Shown here piece after piece: positions 10,941 to 44,422 of a stretch of 64,000 bases of DNA. The number at the start of each line of letters is the position of its first letter. Position 1 is the first letter of the stretch. Source of the stretch: Psychroserpens sp. SPM9 (GTDB taxonomy: Bacteria > Bacteroidota > Bacteroidia > Flavobacteriales > Flavobacteriaceae); assembly GCF_025153525.1 (NCBI RefSeq), contig NZ_JANZNR010000007.1, positions 124,001 through 188,000 on the forward strand. Direction: 5' to 3'. The notes below the pieces were generated by a model. The model was not told the DNA's origin. It saw only the letters and a list, made by a program, of their open reading frames with translations, and did not search any database. Made by a program: the position numbers and the translations under genes.

Positions 10941-12293
10941 ATGGTATTAAAAGAAGCTCGAATATTAGTTATAGATGATGACGCAGATGTTTTAACTGCG
11001 CTACGCCTTTTACTGAAACCCTTAGTAAAAGACGTCGTCACTGAAAAAAACCCAAGCAATATCAGTGCTCAAATTGAAGGTTCGTCTTTTGATATTATTA
11101 TCTTGGATATGAACTTCAACGGACTCGTTAACACGGGTAATGAAGGTATCTTTTGGCTGAATAACATCCGGAAACAAAAACCAGAAACAGCTGTTATATT
11201 AATGACGGCTTATGCAGATATTGATCTAGCGATAAGAGGCCTAAAAGAAGGCGCTTCCGATTTTCTAGTGAAGCCCTGGAAGAATGAAAAAATCATTTCC
11301 ACCATTACAACAATATTGGGTCAAAAGTCTGCAAATGCTCCTAGCGCCTCACAACTCAACTCCAGCAGTATTGAAATTATAGGTGCCAGTGATGTTATGA
11401 ATGATGTTTTTGTAAAACTTAAAAAAGTGGCGCCAACTGATGCGAATGTTTTAATACTTGGCGAAAACGGAACTGGTAAAGACTTATTTGCGAGAGCGCT
11501 TCATAATCTTTCCAACAGAAAAAACAAACCATTTATAAAAGTAGATGTAGGTGCATTAACCTCTTCGCTGTTTGAAAGTGAATTATTTGGCTATAAAAAA
11601 GGAGCTTTTACAGATGCTCGAGAAGACCGAAAAGGACGTTTTGAAGCAGCCAATGGTGGCACCCTTTTTCTGGATGAAATTGGCAATATAAGTTTAGGGC
11701 AACAAGTGAGGTTACTTACGGTATTACAAAACCGACAAGTGACACCATTAGGTTCTAACGAATCAATTCCTATAGATATTAGATTAATTTGTGCTACTAA
11801 TATTGATCCTAAAGTACTGGCTGACGAAAAAAAATTCAGAAAAGATTTAATATACAGAATTAATACCGTAGATATTATTGTTCCGCCATTGAGAGATCGC
11901 GGAACAGATATCACAGAATTATCGAAACACTTCGTATCGTTATATGCCGAAAAGTATAATAAAAGTCCGTTTACTTTTGACTCTGGATTTATTTCAAAAT
12001 TAAAAAAGCACGATTTCCCTGGGAACGTTAGAGAACTTCAATATGTGCTAGAACGTGCCGTCATTATGACCGATGGCAGTGTTTTAAAACCTGATGATTT
12101 GGTGTTTTCATCCATCGAACGATCAAGAACCAAAACAGGTGTAGAAACTAGCAGTTTAAATTTAGATGATGTTGAAAAAAATGCCATTCTAACCGTTTTA
12201 GAAAAACACAAAGGAAATGTTTCTAAATCGGCAAAAGAACTAGGCATAACAAGAGCTGCGCTATACAGACGATTGGAGAAATATGAACTATAA
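10941..12293 (+). CDS. sigma-54-dependent response regulator, NtrC family
   Basis: A 450-residue protein with three parts. The receiver domain (about 6-125) has phospho-acceptor Asp56 (IIILDMN), MTAY at 88-91 and Lys111. The AAA+ domain (about 146-375) has Walker A GENGTGKD at 174-181 and Walker B TLFLDE at 241-246. A Fis-type helix-turn-helix lies at about 408-450. The sigma-54-contacting loop reads GAFTDA (221-226), not GAFTGA. Gene order and the 11-bp overlap with the kinase gene show a two-component pair, and the divergent position suggests it controls the efflux operon from 10733. Kinase signal and target promoter are inferred. Confidence 0.93.
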   Translation: MVLKEARILVIDDDADVLTALRLLLKPLVKDVVTEKNPSNISAQIEGSSFDIIILDMNFNGLVNTGNEGIFWLNNIRKQKPETAVILMTAYADIDLAIRGLKEGASDFLVKPWKNEKIISTITTILGQKSANAPSASQLNSSSIEIIGASDVMNDVFVKLKKVAPTDANVLILGENGTGKDLFARALHNLSNRKNKPFIKVDVGALTSSLFESELFGYKKGAFTDAREDRKGRFEAANGGTLFLDEIGNISLGQQVRLLTVLQNRQVTPLGSNESIPIDIRLICATNIDPKVLADEKKFRKDLIYRINTVDIIVPPLRDRGTDITELSKHFVSLYAEKYNKSPFTFDSGFISKLKKHDFPGNVRELQYVLERAVIMTDGSVLKPDDLVFSSIERSRTKTGVETSSLNLDDVEKNAILTVLEKHKGNVSKSAKELGITRAALYRRLEKYEL

Positions 12294-35968: not shown

Positions 35969-36003
35969 CATGCTTATTGACTGTACAATACTTTCAAAGA
36001 TTT

Positions 36004-37449
36004 ATGGAGAAAACAATTGACGAAAATAAACAAGGCGAAAGCCTTATTTTAGACCAAAAAGAAGGTAACACTCGAAAACTTTTTATCGAAAGTTATGGCT
36101 GTGCTATGAATTTTAGTGACAGTGAAATTGTAGCTTCAATCCTTTCTGAACAAGGATTTAATACCACGCAGACACTTGAAGATGCCGATTTGGTTTTAGT
36201 CAATACCTGTTCCATTAGAGATAAAGCCGAACAAACCGTTAGAAAACGTTTAGAAAAATACAATGCCGTAAAACGCATCAACCCTAAAATGAAAGTTGGT
36301 GTTTTAGGCTGTATGGCAGAACGCTTAAAAACCAAATTTCTTGAAGAAGAAAAAATCGTAGACCTCGTTGTAGGACCAGATGCTTATAAAGATTTACCTA
36401 ATCTATTAGCCGAAGTTGACGAAGGTCGGGATGCCATCAATGTTATTTTGTCAAAAGAAGAAACTTACGGAGATATCGCTCCTGTTAGACTTAACAGTAA
36501 TGGCGTTACTGCTTTTGTATCTATCACTCGTGGATGTGATAATATGTGCACCTTTTGCGTGGTCCCTTTTACTCGTGGTCGTGAACGTAGTCGTGATCCG
36601 CAAAGTATTATTGAAGAAGTTAATGATTTATGGAACAAAGGCTATAAAGAAATCACACTTTTAGGTCAAAATGTAGACAGCTATTTATGGTATGGTGGCG
36701 GACTCAAAAAAGATTTCGTTAAAGCCAGCGATATGCAAAAAGCGACAGCCATTAATTTTGCACAGCTTTTAGAATTATGCGCCAAAGCTCAGCCTAAAAT
36801 GCGTATTCGGTTTTCAACATCAAATCCTCAGGATTTAACTTTAGATGTTATCAAAACCATGGCCAAATTTGACAATATTTGCAAGCACATTCACTTGCCT
36901 GTTCAAAGCGGAAGTAATCGTATTTTAAAAGCAATGAATCGCCTGCACACACGCGAAGAATATTTTGAACTTATCGATAACATCAGAGCCATTCTTCCTG
37001 AATGCGCAATTAGTCAGGATTTAATTGCTGGTTTTCCTACAGAAACCGAAGAAGACCATCAAGATACCTTGAGTTTGATGGATTATGTGAAGTACAATTT
37101 TGGATATATGTTTACTTATTCTGAACGCCCCGGAACCATGGCAGAACGCAAATTGGAAGACGATATTCCTGAAGCTATAAAAAAACGTCGTTTAGCCGAA
37201 ATTGTCCAAAAACAACGAGAACACAGTGAAATTAGAACAAGAGACTATTTAAATACAACCGTTGAAGTGCTTATCGAGCGTGAGTCTAAAAAATCAGATC
37301 AGCAATGGTCTGGAAGAACGTCTCAAAATATTGTAGCTGTATTTCCTAAGGCGCATTATAAAGTTGGTGATTTAGTTAATGTTGATGTTAATGATTGTAC
37401 GAGTGCGACACTTATTGGTGAAGCTACTGGATATTCAAAAGATAATTAA
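36004..37449 (+). CDS. miaB: tRNA-2-methylthio-N6-isopentenyladenosine synthase MiaB
   Basis: I start at ATG 36004 (481 residues, MEKTIDENK); an in-frame TTG at 35977 would begin almost at the predicted transcription start. The N-terminal methylthiotransferase domain holds Cys33 ([12 protein letters not shown]), Cys69 ([11 protein letters not shown]) and Cys103 (LGCMAERLK), ligands of the auxiliary iron-sulfur cluster. The radical-SAM cluster motif is Cys178-Cys182-Cys185 ([10 protein letters not shown]). A TRAM domain ends the protein. The enzyme adds a methylthio group to i6A37 of tRNAs reading UNN codons. The activator gene starts 3 bp after the stop, so the two are one unit. Confidence 0.96.
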
Positions 37450-37452
37450 TAT

Positions 37453-38718
37453 ATGGAATCAATTCAAGCTATAAAACAACGTTTCGGAATTATAGGAAAC
37501 GACCCAAAACTCAATCGTGCTATCGAAAAAGCAATCCAGGTGGCACCTACTGATATTTCAGTATTGGTTACTGGTGAAAGTGGTGTTGGTAAAGAAAGTA
37601 TTCCTAAAATCATTCACCAGTTATCGCATCGTAAGCATGGTAAATACATCGCTGTTAACTGTGGTGCAATTCCAGAAGGCACCATCGACAGTGAATTATT
37701 TGGTCACGAAAAAGGCGCTTTTACTGGAGCCACGCAAACCCGAAGTGGTTATTTTGAGGTCGCGGATGGTGGTACCATTTTTTTAGATGAAGTTGGCGAA
37801 TTACCACTCACCACACAAGTCCGCTTACTACGTGTATTAGAAAATGGTGAATTCATCAAAGTGGGTTCTAGTAAGGTTCAAAAAACCAATGTAAGAATTG
37901 TTGCTGCAACAAACGTTAATATGTTTGAAGCCATTAAAAAGGAAAAATTTCGTGAAGATTTATATTACAGACTCAGTACTGTAGACATTAACATTCCGCC
38001 TCTTCGCGAACGAAAAGAAGACATTCATTTACTCTTCAGAAAGTTTGCAAGTGATTTTGCCTTAAAATATAAAATGCCAACCATCAAGCTTACAGACGAT
38101 GCGGTTAACGTTTTACAAAAGCATCGCTGGAACGGTAATATTCGTCAGTTGCGAAATGCTGCAGAACAGATTTCGGTCTTAGAACAAAACCGTACAATAA
38201 GCGCCACAACACTTCAAGGCTATTTACCAAGCGGAAGTAATAATTTACCAGCCGTCATAAACACCTCTAAATCGGAAAGCGATTTTAGCAACGAACGTGA
38301 AATTCTTTACAAAGTCCTTTTTGATATGAAAAGCGACCTCAACGACCTCAAAAAATTAACGATGGAGTTGATGAAAAGCGGCAATATTTCTGAAGTAGAA
38401 AAAGATAATGAAGGCTTAATTCAAAAAATATATGGCGAGTCTCAAAATAAAAGTCATTCCGAAGAATTTGAAGATTTAGAAATCTTAGCCATTCCAGAGC
38501 CAACTGAAGATACATTTGATCCCGACGATAAAAATCAAGATAAATATCATTTTGCTGAAGAAATTGAAGAGGAAGAAACCTTATCTTTACACGACAAGGA
38601 ACTCGAACTGATTAAAAAATCACTGGAACGTCACCAAGGCAAACGCAAATTAGCAGCTGCTGAATTAGGAATCAGCGAGCGTACACTCTATAGAAAAATT
38701 AAACAATTTGATTTATAA
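37453..38718 (+). CDS. sigma-54 activator without a sensor domain (PspF-like layout)
   Basis: A 421-residue enhancer-binding protein. The AAA+ domain starts almost at the N-terminus, with Walker A GESGVGKE at 41-48, an intact GAFTGA loop at 88-93, Walker B TIFLDE at 108-113 and the arginine-finger region FREDLYYRLS. An acidic low-similarity linker (about 270-380) leads to a Fis-type helix-turn-helix (about 385-421, LAAAELGISERTLYRKIKQF). With no receiver or ligand domain it must be controlled by expression level or a partner protein, as PspF is. It is coupled to miaB (3-bp gap). A candidate target, the groES promoter, lies 3.6 kb downstream; this link is inference. Confidence 0.93.
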   Translation: MESIQAIKQRFGIIGNDPKLNRAIEKAIQVAPTDISVLVTGESGVGKESIPKIIHQLSHRKHGKYIAVNCGAIPEGTIDSELFGHEKGAFTGATQTRSGYFEVADGGTIFLDEVGELPLTTQVRLLRVLENGEFIKVGSSKVQKTNVRIVAATNVNMFEAIKKEKFREDLYYRLSTVDINIPPLRERKEDIHLLFRKFASDFALKYKMPTIKLTDDAVNVLQKHRWNGNIRQLRNAAEQISVLEQNRTISATTLQGYLPSGSNNLPAVINTSKSESDFSNEREILYKVLFDMKSDLNDLKKLTMELMKSGNISEVEKDNEGLIQKIYGESQNKSHSEEFEDLEILAIPEPTEDTFDPDDKNQDKYHFAEEIEEEETLSLHDKELELIKKSLERHQGKRKLAAAELGISERTLYRKIKQFDL

Positions 38719-38764: not shown

Positions 38765-40129
38765 ATGAAAAACTTACGCTTTTGTTTCGCTTTTATTACA
38801 TTATTAGCTATAATCTCATGTAGTGATAATGATGCTGATGAAGAAATAACTATAGAATCGCCTTCACTAAAAACAATTAATAGTGCTGATATAACTGATA
38901 ATGGTAATACATATCTAGGAGTTGATGATATTATAACTTATACCATTACTGTAAAAAACACGGGTGATGTCCTTATAAATGATATAGAAATTACTGCTAA
39001 TTTATCAGACCTTTCTGGAGCAGCTTTGAGTTTAGACATTGAGCCTACATTTATCAATGCAGATGCAGGAAGCATCTCAGGGATTTTACAAATTAATGAA
39101 ACAGCAACATATACTGCTGCTTATACAATAACACAAAATGATGTAGATGCTGGAGGCATAACAAATAGTATCACAGCTAGTGGCATAACCCCTCTTAACG
39201 TATCAGTAAATGATGTTAGTGATGATGGGATCGATGAAGATGGTAACACAACAGATGATCCAACTTCAACTATATTATCTAACGATGCGTTTGACCCAAC
39301 AATAATAGCAGAATATCACATAATTAATTCTGAAGGAAATCCAACCAACAAATATTTTTTTGATGCTGATGGTCGATTTGAAGAATTGCACACCTCAAGC
39401 ACTAAATACCTTTTCGCATACGATAATTCTGAAAAAATAATTAACATCACTACAACAGATATCGATGATGTTGTTATTGAATCTCAAGATGTAATTTATG
39501 ATTCTGAAGGTAGAATCACACAAATAGGCACTAGACATTTTGAATTTGTTGCAGATGAAAATTATTTTATAGAAACAGAAACCTATAGTATAGATGGACC
39601 ATACACTTATGAAGATGAGAATGGCGATATTATTGAAGAATATGAAATCTGGTATACTAAATATTATGGTTCTATTGGAAACTATGTTAATACACTATGT
39701 TATTATTCAAGTATCGAACAAACTAATACCACTACTGGCGAGTTTAATGAATACGGATATTGTACTAATTTTGAGTCTAATGATTATGTCAATAACGTTG
39801 GAAATATTTGTACCGATTCAGATTGTGTAGACTTTGGGTATGACAACACTATAAATCCTTTGATGGGATCAACAAACCTCATTAATGTTTATGGGTTTAT
39901 AAGATTATTTCCATTTGGTAGTCAACCATCGAAATTAAACATATTAATAAACGCAAATAATCTTACACTTATGGATTATTCCGATCCTAGTTATATTGTT
40001 TACTCGTATGAGTTTAATGGCAACAATTTGCCAGTTTCAGGAACCAGACAATATTTAGACGAAGTAGGCCCTGGAGAAGTGAATTTATATTCTAGATATT
40101 ACTACCAAGGCGATATCATTCCAGATTAA
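38765..40129 (+). CDS. putative lipoprotein with DUF11-like repeat
   Basis: A 454-residue protein with a lipoprotein signal ending IISC (Cys19) and an acidic start to the mature chain. Residues about 35-170 resemble the DUF11/DUF7507 type of adhesin-like domain (YTITVKNTGDVLINDIEI, then NETATYTAAYTITQNDVDAG). The C-terminal two thirds are rich in Tyr, Asp, Asn and Thr, with YDxxGR-like segments (YDSEGRITQIGTRHF) as in RHS/YD-type sheets. It lies between the sigma-54 activator gene and lptE, where I would expect no gene in related genomes, so it may be an inserted accessory gene. Probably surface-exposed; role unknown. Confidence 0.7.
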   Translation: MKNLRFCFAFITLLAIISCSDNDADEEITIESPSLKTINSADITDNGNTYLGVDDIITYTITVKNTGDVLINDIEITANLSDLSGAALSLDIEPTFINADAGSISGILQINETATYTAAYTITQNDVDAGGITNSITASGITPLNVSVNDVSDDGIDEDGNTTDDPTSTILSNDAFDPTIIAEYHIINSEGNPTNKYFFDADGRFEELHTSSTKYLFAYDNSEKIINITTTDIDDVVIESQDVIYDSEGRITQIGTRHFEFVADENYFIETETYSIDGPYTYEDENGDIIEEYEIWYTKYYGSIGNYVNTLCYYSSIEQTNTTTGEFNEYGYCTNFESNDYVNNVGNICTDSDCVDFGYDNTINPLMGSTNLINVYGFIRLFPFGSQPSKLNILINANNLTLMDYSDPSYIVYSYEFNGNNLPVSGTRQYLDEVGPGEVNLYSRYYYQGDIIPD

Positions 40130-40204: not shown

Positions 40205-40402
40205 ATGAAAGCAGTAGAAATATTTATGATTCGAAAATCGTTCGGAAGAAATAGTTCGGAAGCAATCAGAAAAGAAGCCGAAGACTTTGTTAACGAAAAA
40301 CATTACCAAGGCTATAGAGTCATCAATGTCGATTTTGATATCGCCGATAATGCGGGTTACATCTATGCTTTTATCACTATGAAACGCCCAAATACGTATT
40401 AA
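40205..40402 (+). CDS. small protein coupled to lptE
   Basis: A 65-residue protein, MKAVEIFMIRKSFG at the start and YAFITMKRPNTY at the end, predicted as alpha followed by beta strands, with no signal peptide. Its stop codon overlaps the lptE start by one base (TAATG), which suggests translational coupling and supports it as a real gene. An antisense frame over the same bases looks like a shadow. A -7-like TATTTTTG lies at 40172-40179. I do not recognise the family. Confidence 0.6.
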   Translation: MKAVEIFMIRKSFGRNSSEAIRKEAEDFVNEKHYQGYRVINVDFDIADNAGYIYAFITMKRPNTY

Positions 40403-40908
40403 TGAAAACATATACATATTTTATTTTAGTTCTCACTGCTCTTAGCTCTTTCAGCTGTGGTGTCACTTATTCATTTACAGGTGTTGATAATCTCAATGCT
40501 GAAACCTTTCAAGTGAATTACTTTCAGAATGCTGCTAATTTAGTCGAACCTGGTTTTGACCGCGATTTCACCTTAGCACTTCAAGAATTGATTACCAATC
40601 AAACCAGTTTAAATCTAACTACTTCTAATGGTGATTTAGTTTATGAGGGTGAAATTACAGAATATCGTATTTCTCCTACAACAGCGCAAGCCAACAGTAC
40701 AGCCGCACAAAATAGATTATCGGTAAGCGTTAATGTGCGCTTTTTTGATAAGAATAACCCAGACGAAGAATTTGAACAGCGGTTTTCATTTTTTTATGAT
40801 TACGCTGGAAGCCAATTATTACAAGGCTCTCAAAAAGACACAGCTCACGAAGCTATTTTTGAGCGTCTCACTCAAGATATTTTTAACGCCACCTTAGCAA
40901 AATGGTAG
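40402..40908 (+). CDS. lptE: LptE-like LPS-assembly lipoprotein
   Basis: A 168-residue lipoprotein with a signal ending LSSFSC (Cys19) and then GVTYSFTGV, the usual start of the Bacteroidota LptE family. The body has two helices and a beta-sheet, with ITEYRISPTTAQANSTAAQNRL and FYDYAGSQLL motifs. LptE plugs the LptD barrel that inserts lipopolysaccharide in the outer membrane. No lptD is in this window. The gene overlaps its upstream neighbour by one base and touches the next gene directly, so it is part of an operon running to secG. Confidence 0.85.
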   Translation: MKTYTYFILVLTALSSFSCGVTYSFTGVDNLNAETFQVNYFQNAANLVEPGFDRDFTLALQELITNQTSLNLTTSNGDLVYEGEITEYRISPTTAQANSTAAQNRLSVSVNVRFFDKNNPDEEFEQRFSFFYDYAGSQLLQGSQKDTAHEAIFERLTQDIFNATLAKW

Positions 40909-41880
40909 ATGGACACTAAAGATTTTGCATACTTATTACAAAACCCTCAGCACATCACCGATGCGCAAACCACCAATTTGCACAATCTCACCTTACGCTA
41001 CCCTTATTTTCAATCGGCAAGAGCATTATACCTTAAAGGACTAAAAAACAAAGAAAGTTTTTCATATAATCAAGAATTAAAAACCACAGCGGCTTATACC
41101 ACAGATCGTAGTATTTTGTTTGATTATATCACGTCGGAAGCTTTTAATCAGAATGAGATTTCACAAATCATTAAGCAAAATTCTGAACATCTTAAAGATA
41201 TTACTGTTCATGAAGTTGATGACATTTCAGTTAATAAAAGTGTAACCATCGACGATGCTTTAAAGCAACATATAAAAAATACCGAAGGCGTTCTAGACCC
41301 AGATTTATTCGAGCAAAAGGTAAAACCCGAAGAAGTGGCTCACTTTTTATCGTTGCCAAAAAACACACCCGAACAGGTGATTATCGACATCGATGCCAAG
41401 CATATTGAAAAAACACTTGAAGATAAGTTACAAATTGGCAAGCCTCTGGAGTTTGATAAAACGGAAACACATTCGTTTTCCGAATGGTTAAAAATTACAA
41501 GTTTTAAACCCATTGAACGAAGTGAAAATGAAACCAGTAGTGATTCTCAAAACGACAATACAAATGATGACACTAAGGTTTCCGAAGCAAAAAACAGTAT
41601 AGATAAGCATCAAAAATTTGAACTTATCGACCGTTTTTTAGAAAACAACCCAAAAATTGTGCCTTCAAAAGATACGCCTAAAGTCACTATTGATGTTACA
41701 GACAAAGTAGCTCATGATGGACTAATGACAGAGACTTTAGCCAGAATTTACCTGGAGCAAAACAACTATGAAAAGGCAATTCAATCTTATAAAATTTTAA
41801 GTTTGAAATATCCAGAAAAAAGTGGTTTCTTTGCAGACCAAATTAAAGCAGTAAAAGAATTACAACAAAATAACACATAG
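40909..41880 (+). CDS. conserved TPR-containing protein between lptE and secG
   Basis: A 323-residue soluble protein without a signal peptide. The N-terminal part (FAYLLQNPQHITDAQTTNL... FPYFQSARALYLKGLKN-like) is helical. The middle is acidic and Ser/Asn-rich (about 205-235), probably disordered. The C-terminus holds a TPR-like pair (MTETLARIYLEQNNYEKAIQ, SYKILSLKYPEKSGFFADQI). The start codon follows the lptE stop directly. Homologues sit at this place in other flavobacteria as far as I recall; role unknown, perhaps envelope assembly given its neighbours. Confidence 0.8.
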   Translation: MDTKDFAYLLQNPQHITDAQTTNLHNLTLRYPYFQSARALYLKGLKNKESFSYNQELKTTAAYTTDRSILFDYITSEAFNQNEISQIIKQNSEHLKDITVHEVDDISVNKSVTIDDALKQHIKNTEGVLDPDLFEQKVKPEEVAHFLSLPKNTPEQVIIDIDAKHIEKTLEDKLQIGKPLEFDKTETHSFSEWLKITSFKPIERSENETSSDSQNDNTNDDTKVSEAKNSIDKHQKFELIDRFLENNPKIVPSKDTPKVTIDVTDKVAHDGLMTETLARIYLEQNNYEKAIQSYKILSLKYPEKSGFFADQIKAVKELQQNNT

Positions 41881-41884
41881 ACAA

Positions 41885-42241
41885 ATGGATGCGTTTACTA
41901 TATTTTTAATCTTAATCGTACTAGTTTCATTTTTACTAGTCGTAGTCGTAATGGTACAAAACCCTAAAGGAGGAGGATTATCATCTTCTTTTGGAGGCGG
42001 TGGCACTCAACAATTAGGTGGTGTTAAAAAAACAACCGACTTCTTAGATAAGAGTACTTGGGCATTAGCAACCTTACTATTAGCATTAATTTTAGCATCT
42101 AACTTTGCCATTCCTGGAGCAGGAGGCAATTCAGAATCTAAAGTGATTAATGGTGATGAGCCAACATCAAATACACAAACTTTACCAGCAACAGATTCAT
42201 CTGCTGATGATATAGCGACACCAATTGATTCTACTAAATAA
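41885..42241 (+). CDS. secG: preprotein translocase subunit SecG
   Basis: A 118-residue membrane protein with two TM helices at about 2-24 and 57-76. Between them is the family loop VMVQNPKGGGLSSSFGGGG, and the KKTTDFLDKSTW motif follows. The C-terminal tail is Ser/Thr/Asp rich and longer than in E. coli. SecG is an accessory subunit of the SecYEG channel. It is the last gene of the unit, 4 bp after the TPR gene, and is followed by a strong terminator. Confidence 0.94.
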   Translation: MDAFTIFLILIVLVSFLLVVVVMVQNPKGGGLSSSFGGGGTQQLGGVKKTTDFLDKSTWALATLLLALILASNFAIPGAGGNSESKVINGDEPTSNTQTLPATDSSADDIATPIDSTK

Positions 42242-42260
42242 GAATTAATCAAATATATTT

Positions 42261-42293
42261 AAAATGCCAGCTTTTTAGTTGGCATTTTTTTTT
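42261..42293 (+). terminator. terminator after secG
   Basis: AAAATGCCAGC (42261-42271) pairs with GTTGGCATTTT (42278-42288) around the loop TTTTTA, with a T-run of nine bases in total. It separates the lptE-secG unit from groESL. Confidence 0.9.
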
Positions 42294-42316: not shown

Positions 42317-42331
42317 CTGAAAGTTTGTCAG
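42317..42331. promoter_or_regulatory. dyad upstream of groES
   Basis: CTGAAAGTTTGTCAG contains TGAAA-GTT-TGTCA, a one-mismatch relative of the TGACA-N3-TGTCA palindrome before miaB. The same motif with two differences in 16 bases stands at 48964-48979. A second dyad, TTCAG-N10-CTGAA (42302-42321), overlaps it. It lies 12 bases before the -24 element. Confidence 0.45.
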
Positions 42332-42343
42332 TTAAAAAATAGG

Positions 42344-42360
42344 TGGCACATTTTTAGCAT
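42344..42360 (+). promoter_or_regulatory. candidate sigma-54 promoter of groES-groEL
   Basis: TGGCACATTTTTAGCAT has the full -24 half TGGCAC, GG and GC exactly ten bases apart and a TAGCA -12 half, one base from the TTGCA form. The start would be near 42370, giving a 39-base leader. I find no CIRCE repeat (TTAGCACTC type) and no TAnnTTTG element at a suitable place. Confidence 0.6.
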
Positions 42361-42374
42361 AACGCTTAAGCGTT
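42361..42374. repeat. 14-bp palindrome at the groES transcription start
   Basis: AACGCTTAAGCGTT is a perfect palindrome that spans the start site predicted from the -24/-12 element. It could be an operator for initial transcription or part of a 5'-end hairpin. Confidence 0.55.
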
Positions 42375-42408
42375 AACTTAAACATTAAATTTAAAAACTT
42401 TCATAACA

Positions 42409-42684
42409 ATGAGCTTAAACATTAAACCATTAGCAGACAGAGTTCTTATTGAACCTGTACAAGCTGAAACTAAAACAGCTTCAGGAATTATTATTCCAGA
42501 CAACGCTAAAGAAAAACCACAACAAGGAAAAGTTGTCGCTGTTGGTAAAGGCACAAAAGATGAACCTATGACTGTTAAATCTGGTGATACTGTTCTTTAT
42601 GGAAAGTACGCTGGGACAGAATTAAAATTAGAAGGTAAAGACTACCTCATCATGCGCGAAAGCGACATATTAGCAATTATCTAA
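42409..42684 (+). CDS. groES: co-chaperonin GroES
   Basis: A 91-residue Hsp10. It has the start [17 protein letters not shown], the mobile loop [22 protein letters not shown] that docks on GroEL, the roof-loop region and the end [14 protein letters not shown]. Seven copies cap the GroEL ring. It is the first gene of the groES-groEL pair with the candidate sigma-54 promoter upstream. Length is that of short family members. Confidence 0.97.
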
Positions 42685-42694
42685 AATTGCTTTT

Positions 42695-44422
<1,728 letters not shown>

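Follow-up and report, generated by a model that had tools for sequence, protein, structure and literature searches.

The locus described here raises the question of what drives the transcription of the chaperonin genes groES and groEL in the Flavobacteriaceae, and of which protein activates it. The window, by which is meant the whole 64-kb stretch of DNA that was analysed, comes from a 3.8-Mb Flavobacteriaceae genome and carries on its forward strand groES (Cpn10; 42409-42684; Pfam PF00166, NCBIfam GroES) and groEL (Cpn60; 42785-44422; Pfam PF00118, TIGR02348), with a sigma-54 activator (37453-38718) encoded approximately 4 kb upstream. A miaB-like radical SAM gene (35977-37449), which is a conserved neighbour, ends 3 bp before the activator, while lptE, a gene without a Pfam match, and secG (together 40402-42241) are kept between the activator and groES, and an intrinsic terminator (42261-42288) sets secG apart from the groES promoter; all of these features lie on the forward strand. 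The order miaB-activator-lptE-gene-secG-groES-groEL is retained in nearly all of the 80 loci, mostly from Flavobacteriaceae, that were collected by a GroES scan. In most of these relatives the activator and lptE are nearly adjacent, whereas in this genome an extra gene, encoding a DUF7507 lipoprotein-like product (38765-40129), stands between them.

The candidate promoter is the sigma-54 -24/-12 element TGGCACATTTTTAGC (42344-42358, forward strand), which lies 65 bp before the ATG of groES at 42409 and is identified by its sequence and its conservation in relatives. The earlier note had placed a site with GG-N10-GC spacing upstream of groES, and its coordinates are right: TGGCACATTTTTAGCAT occupies 42344-42360, with the GG at 42345-42346 and the GC at 42357-42358. 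The geometry of sigma-54 promoters predicts a forward-strand transcription start at 42370 (±1), 12 nt past the C of the -12 element. A perfect 16-bp palindrome, TAACGCTTAAGCGTTA (42360-42375), overlaps the predicted start from -10 to +6. Its symmetry is kept by paired changes (AACGC/GCGTT, AATGC/GCATT, TACGC/GCGTA) in close relatives only, other loci being without the palindrome. It may be an operator or a hairpin, but for an mRNA hairpin to form transcription would have to begin upstream of 42360, in conflict with sigma-54 geometry.

The bare -24/-12 motif is, on its own, no better than chance, and its significance comes from conservation. Matches to TGGCAC-N5-TTGCA with at most three mismatches number 159 in the window against 135 expected, there are only two with at most one mismatch, and a genome-wide search for TGGCAY-N4-TTNGC returns 12 matches compared to 7 for a reversed control. 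Across the related loci, on the other hand, the element is found upstream of 76 of 80 groES genes, which is the comparison of Flavobacteriaceae upstream regions that the earlier note had called for, while upstream of the neighbouring genes its frequency ranges from 0 to 7% (miaB 0/23, activator 5/71, lptE 0/58, the gene after lptE 4/57, secG 0/70, groEL 3/80). When the set is counted as 81 groES regions, 77 carry the element, compared to about 1 in 81 shuffled groES regions. A second groES copy in one genome (locus L221 of G041, G041:C18:14603-14869) is without a sigma-54 promoter.

The form in which the element is conserved differs from the TGGCAC-N5-TTGCA pattern that had been proposed for comparison: the -24/-12 element as such is kept, but the -12 half in the relatives is G(A/C) and not TTGCA. 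The lineage consensus for groES is TGGCAYAATTTCTGA, that is, GG-N10-G(A/C) with a relaxed -12; 99% of the groES upstream regions anchored on TGGCA have the G of the -12 half, and GG-N10-G is nearly invariant. The single mismatch reported for the -12 half of the window's site is therefore real when measured against TTGCA and is normal for the lineage. The genome also encodes RpoN (PF04552 match at G000:C22:141098-141574, E 1.3e-52). Start mapping in F. psychrophilum has shown that groESL, lon, dnaK, grpE-dnaJ, htpG, clpB and other genes carry a motif, SM4, which was assigned to sigma-54 (PMC9723704). Conservation and this published mapping together give strong support to the suggestion that groESL is controlled by sigma-54, and the promoters of the present work resemble those with SM4 in family, in genes and in -24/-12 type.

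The alternative heat-shock controls that were looked for are not in evidence. In agreement with the earlier report of no CIRCE element, a scan of the 64-kb window for TTAGCACTC-N9-GAGTGCTAA gave no match at up to three mismatches, and hrcA was found in 0 of 20 genomes, this one included, while the control gave a signal in 7 of 14. The sigma factors listed for F. psychrophilum are only sigma-A, sigma-54 and ECF (PMC9723704). The proposed control would share the target genes groESL and dnaK with HrcA/CIRCE and sigma-32 control, but would differ from both in being positive control through sigma-54 rather than repression or the use of an alternative sigma-70-type factor.

The activator encoded at 37453-38718 had been described as having an intact GAFTGA loop and no sensor domain, and the domain matches bear this out. 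Its AAA+ domain (PF00158, E 1.4e-67), with Walker A GESGVGKE and the loop GAFTGA, starts at residue 13 and is followed by an AAA lid domain (PF25601) and by a Fis-type helix-turn-helix (HTH) at the C terminus (PF02954, residues 382-419); no REC, GAF or PAS domain was found, which places the protein in the sensorless class. In an alignment of 72 orthologs the recognition-helix region ELGISERTLYRKIK is invariant or nearly so, and a conserved, helix-like linker, EREILYKVLFDMKxDLxxLKxxT, lies between the AAA+ domain and the HTH. The architecture is that of the PspF-type sensorless activators, with an N-terminal AAA+ domain, no sensor domain, GAFTGA and a C-terminal Fis-type HTH. The protein nevertheless differs from PspF in its conserved linker helix, in its proposed chaperone regulon and in its score, since none of the NCBIfam equivalogs is matched above cut-off and the PspF model TIGR02974 gives 270.3 of the 443.6 bits required. 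PspF itself is under the control of PspA, which acts in trans. Because the window's activator has no sensor domain, its control must act in trans or through its expression; that chaperones exert this control through the linker segment is a guess.

A candidate binding site for this activator precedes the promoter. The proposed operator, TGAAA-GTT-TGTCA (42318-42330, forward strand), has a right arm that starts 18 bp before TGGCA, and among the 78 anchored groES loci a TGNCA, mostly TGTCAG, stands before TGGCA in 74, at 17 bp in 68 and at 18 bp in 6. Similar inverted repeats of the TGACA-N3-TGTCA type precede the -24 elements of groES, dnaK and clpB in this genome, and that of htpG in a weaker form: dnaK has TGACATCATGTCATATTTTTTGTCATGGCATAATGATTG, a perfect TGACA-N3-TGTCA (0 mismatches) with its TGTCA 17 bp before TGGCA, clpB has operators 27 and 59 bp before TGGTAAGGTTATTG, and htpG has TGTCA-GTT-TGTCA, with the left arm off consensus, 17 bp from TGGTA. 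The strict pattern TGTCAG-N8-14-TGGCAYA occurs in the genome only at groES and at one intragenic position, and a looser phased pattern gives 20 matches compared to 9 for the control, the recognisable intergenic chaperone matches being those at dnaK and htpG. The operator was defined after the sequences had been viewed, and a match of at least 8/10 occurs in 3-6% of shuffled regions. The dnaK match is weak in about half of the genomes that have a single activator, and in the 600-kb genomes the arms of the groES repeat are swapped (TGTCA-TAA-TGACA).

The distances between operator and TGGCA cluster at 17-18, 27-29, 37-39, 47-49 and 58-59 bp. For a period of 10.5 bp, and with every promoter included whose operator scored 8/10 or better, the Rayleigh R is 0.89, a statistic that is inflated by related sequences, which make the counts in general overstate independence; it is 0.75-0.81 for distinct operator/distance pairs and 0.75 for such pairs from single-activator genomes only. 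Steps of whole turns are to be expected if the bound protein and the polymerase lie on one side of the helix. Operators placed close to the -24 element and in helical phase with it would distinguish this arrangement from the distant enhancer of the PspF type. In Flavobacterium, Zobellia and Muricauda-type loci (for example L039, L045 and L084) a second TGTCA/TGACA occurs about 48 bp before TGGCA. It lies upstream of the first site by three helical turns and within the hairpin loop of the secG terminator, where sequence is apparently common to terminator and operator.

Three other explanations must be weighed against these data. That the site is a chance match, with groESL controlled in some other way, would suit the near-chance frequency of the bare motif in the window and the genome, but it is contradicted by the conservation of the site, nearly without exception, at the same place throughout the family as well as in reduced genomes, and can hardly be entertained. 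If a housekeeping or ECF sigma factor drove groESL, then TGTCA...TGGCAYAAT would have to be read as a -35/-10-like promoter or as a repressor site, and the gap of 17-18 bp between TGTCA and TGGCA in most Flavobacteriaceae is indeed near the spacing of -35 and -10 elements. The distance from TGTCA to TGGCA, however, changes in steps of whole turns (27, 38, 48) with the -24/-12 element kept in place, GG-N10-G is nearly invariant, the sigma-A -7 box (TAnnTTTG) is at chance upstream of groES (7/81 compared to 6.5 expected), and the mapped groES start of F. psychrophilum was assigned to the sigma-54 motif (PMC9723704), all of which makes this explanation very improbable.

The remaining alternative accepts sigma-54 but has it drive groESL through a response-regulator activator, such as that of locus L002, while the orphan activator serves other genes. 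This genome has four PF00158 activators, of which three are response regulators and only the window's is sensorless; two of the three have altered loops (GAFTSA, GAFTDA) and two lie beside histidine kinases, but L002, which adjoins a histidine kinase, has an intact GAFTGA, and the authors of the F. psychrophilum study, which found three PF00158 proteins and left the activators open, suggested that several activators share sigma-54 promoters (PMC9723704). Genomes without response-regulator activators, however, keep rpoN, an ortholog of the window's activator and a groES promoter with its operator, and we regard the alternative as unlikely. At least one activator is present in 194 of 196 genomes of the order (E 1e-40), and in G062, one of the two without, groES lies at a contig edge, where the upstream activator has probably been cut off. 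Of the genomes of the order with exactly one activator, 32 were tested, and in 31 of them it is an ortholog of the window's protein, 58-71% identical; rpoN is kept in 27 of the 28 that were checked, and 25 of these 27, among them genomes of about 600 kb and one of 345 kb, keep a strict groES -24/-12 element, the other two, G051 (CGGCACAATTTATGA) and G034, having degenerate ones. Single-activator genomes keep ELGISERTLYRKIK, some with LK for IK at the end of the segment, and some have the loop GSFTGA, in which the threonine is kept. The exception, G199 (about 300 kb), has a 37% activator-like hit, no rpoN and no groES promoter; factor, activator and promoter have apparently been lost together. 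As to the response regulators themselves, the window contains one (10941-12293; REC-AAA-HTH, with GAFTDA for GAFTGA), which has a histidine kinase gene next to it and a gene for a secretion-type membrane-fusion protein beside it, and the GAFTSA activator (L001, G000:C38:90426-90926) lacks a recognisable HTH at the C terminus of its 387-aa frame.

The reading we prefer is that groESL has a sigma-54 promoter on which the window's activator and its operator act, and that the same pair also serves dnaK, clpB and probably htpG; we give this reading, which is built on comparison of sequences, a probability of roughly 0.83. The link between the activator and the groESL promoter, which the earlier note had put forward as possible from proximity, is supported by the single-activator genomes, the shared operator, the phasing and the synteny, and we infer it on these grounds. 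In the proposed mechanism, one sigma-54 promoter would serve for all transcription of groES-groEL; the activator would bind the inverted repeat of the TGACA-N3-TGTCA type as a dimer, and in oligomers, on the side of the helix that also presents the -24 element, and ATP hydrolysis would open the sigma-54 RNA polymerase complex by way of the GAFTGA loop. With dnaK, clpB and probably htpG run by the same activator and operator, the protein would act as the heat-shock activator in the Flavobacteriales, where it would stand in for sigma-32 and HrcA/CIRCE, and its activity would be set in trans, perhaps via the conserved linker helix.

The reduced genomes of the order show how far the system may persist. 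Nine of the tested genomes come from the smallest family; seven have about 600 kb and two about 300 kb, sizes that would fit Blattabacterium and other insect symbionts. One of them, G027, has 344,793 bp and a G+C content of 22.5%, and in the 299 kb that were scanned a perfect TGACA-N3-TGTCA occurs twice, once within a gene and once at groES, where TGACATTATGTCA, the only intergenic copy, stands 28 bp before TGGCATATTTTTGG. In the same genome an intergenic sigma-54-like site, TGGCATAACTATTG, precedes a lon-like gene, so called by its N-terminal sequence. The Walczuchella genome paper considered the retention of RpoN in such symbionts unusual and tentatively proposed a connection with nitrogen (PMC3971599). 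The comparisons made here suggest instead that reduced symbionts retain RpoN for chaperone transcription.

Sigma-54 control of flavobacterial groESL is already published and is not new, and a 2025 survey found chaperones to be enriched in the predicted sigma-54 regulons of Bacteroidota (PMC12316311). What appear to be new are the activator, its operator and the reason for which the pair persists in tiny insect symbionts, for whereas the F. psychrophilum work on SM4 assigned neither activator nor operator, an activator, an operator and a phasing rule are proposed here, and the activator question that was left open in publications thereby becomes testable.

A wider interpretation, which is tentative and somewhat less probable than its denial, is that sigma-54 and this one activator are essential throughout the Flavobacteriales, since no further promoter can be recognised for groESL, and form a dedicated heat-shock system. 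Even genomes near 300 kb would retain this system for the sake of GroESL, and perhaps of Lon, and free chaperones would restrain the activator via its conserved linker helix. Sigma-54 is usually dispensable in bacteria, and literature searches on whether rpoN is essential in Bacteroidota gave no usable result. Should groESL rely solely on sigma-54, then sigma-54 would be expected to be essential in Flavobacteriales. An answer is also proposed to the question of why RpoN is retained in extremely reduced insect symbionts: RpoN and a single activator may persist there in order to transcribe groESL, and perhaps lon.
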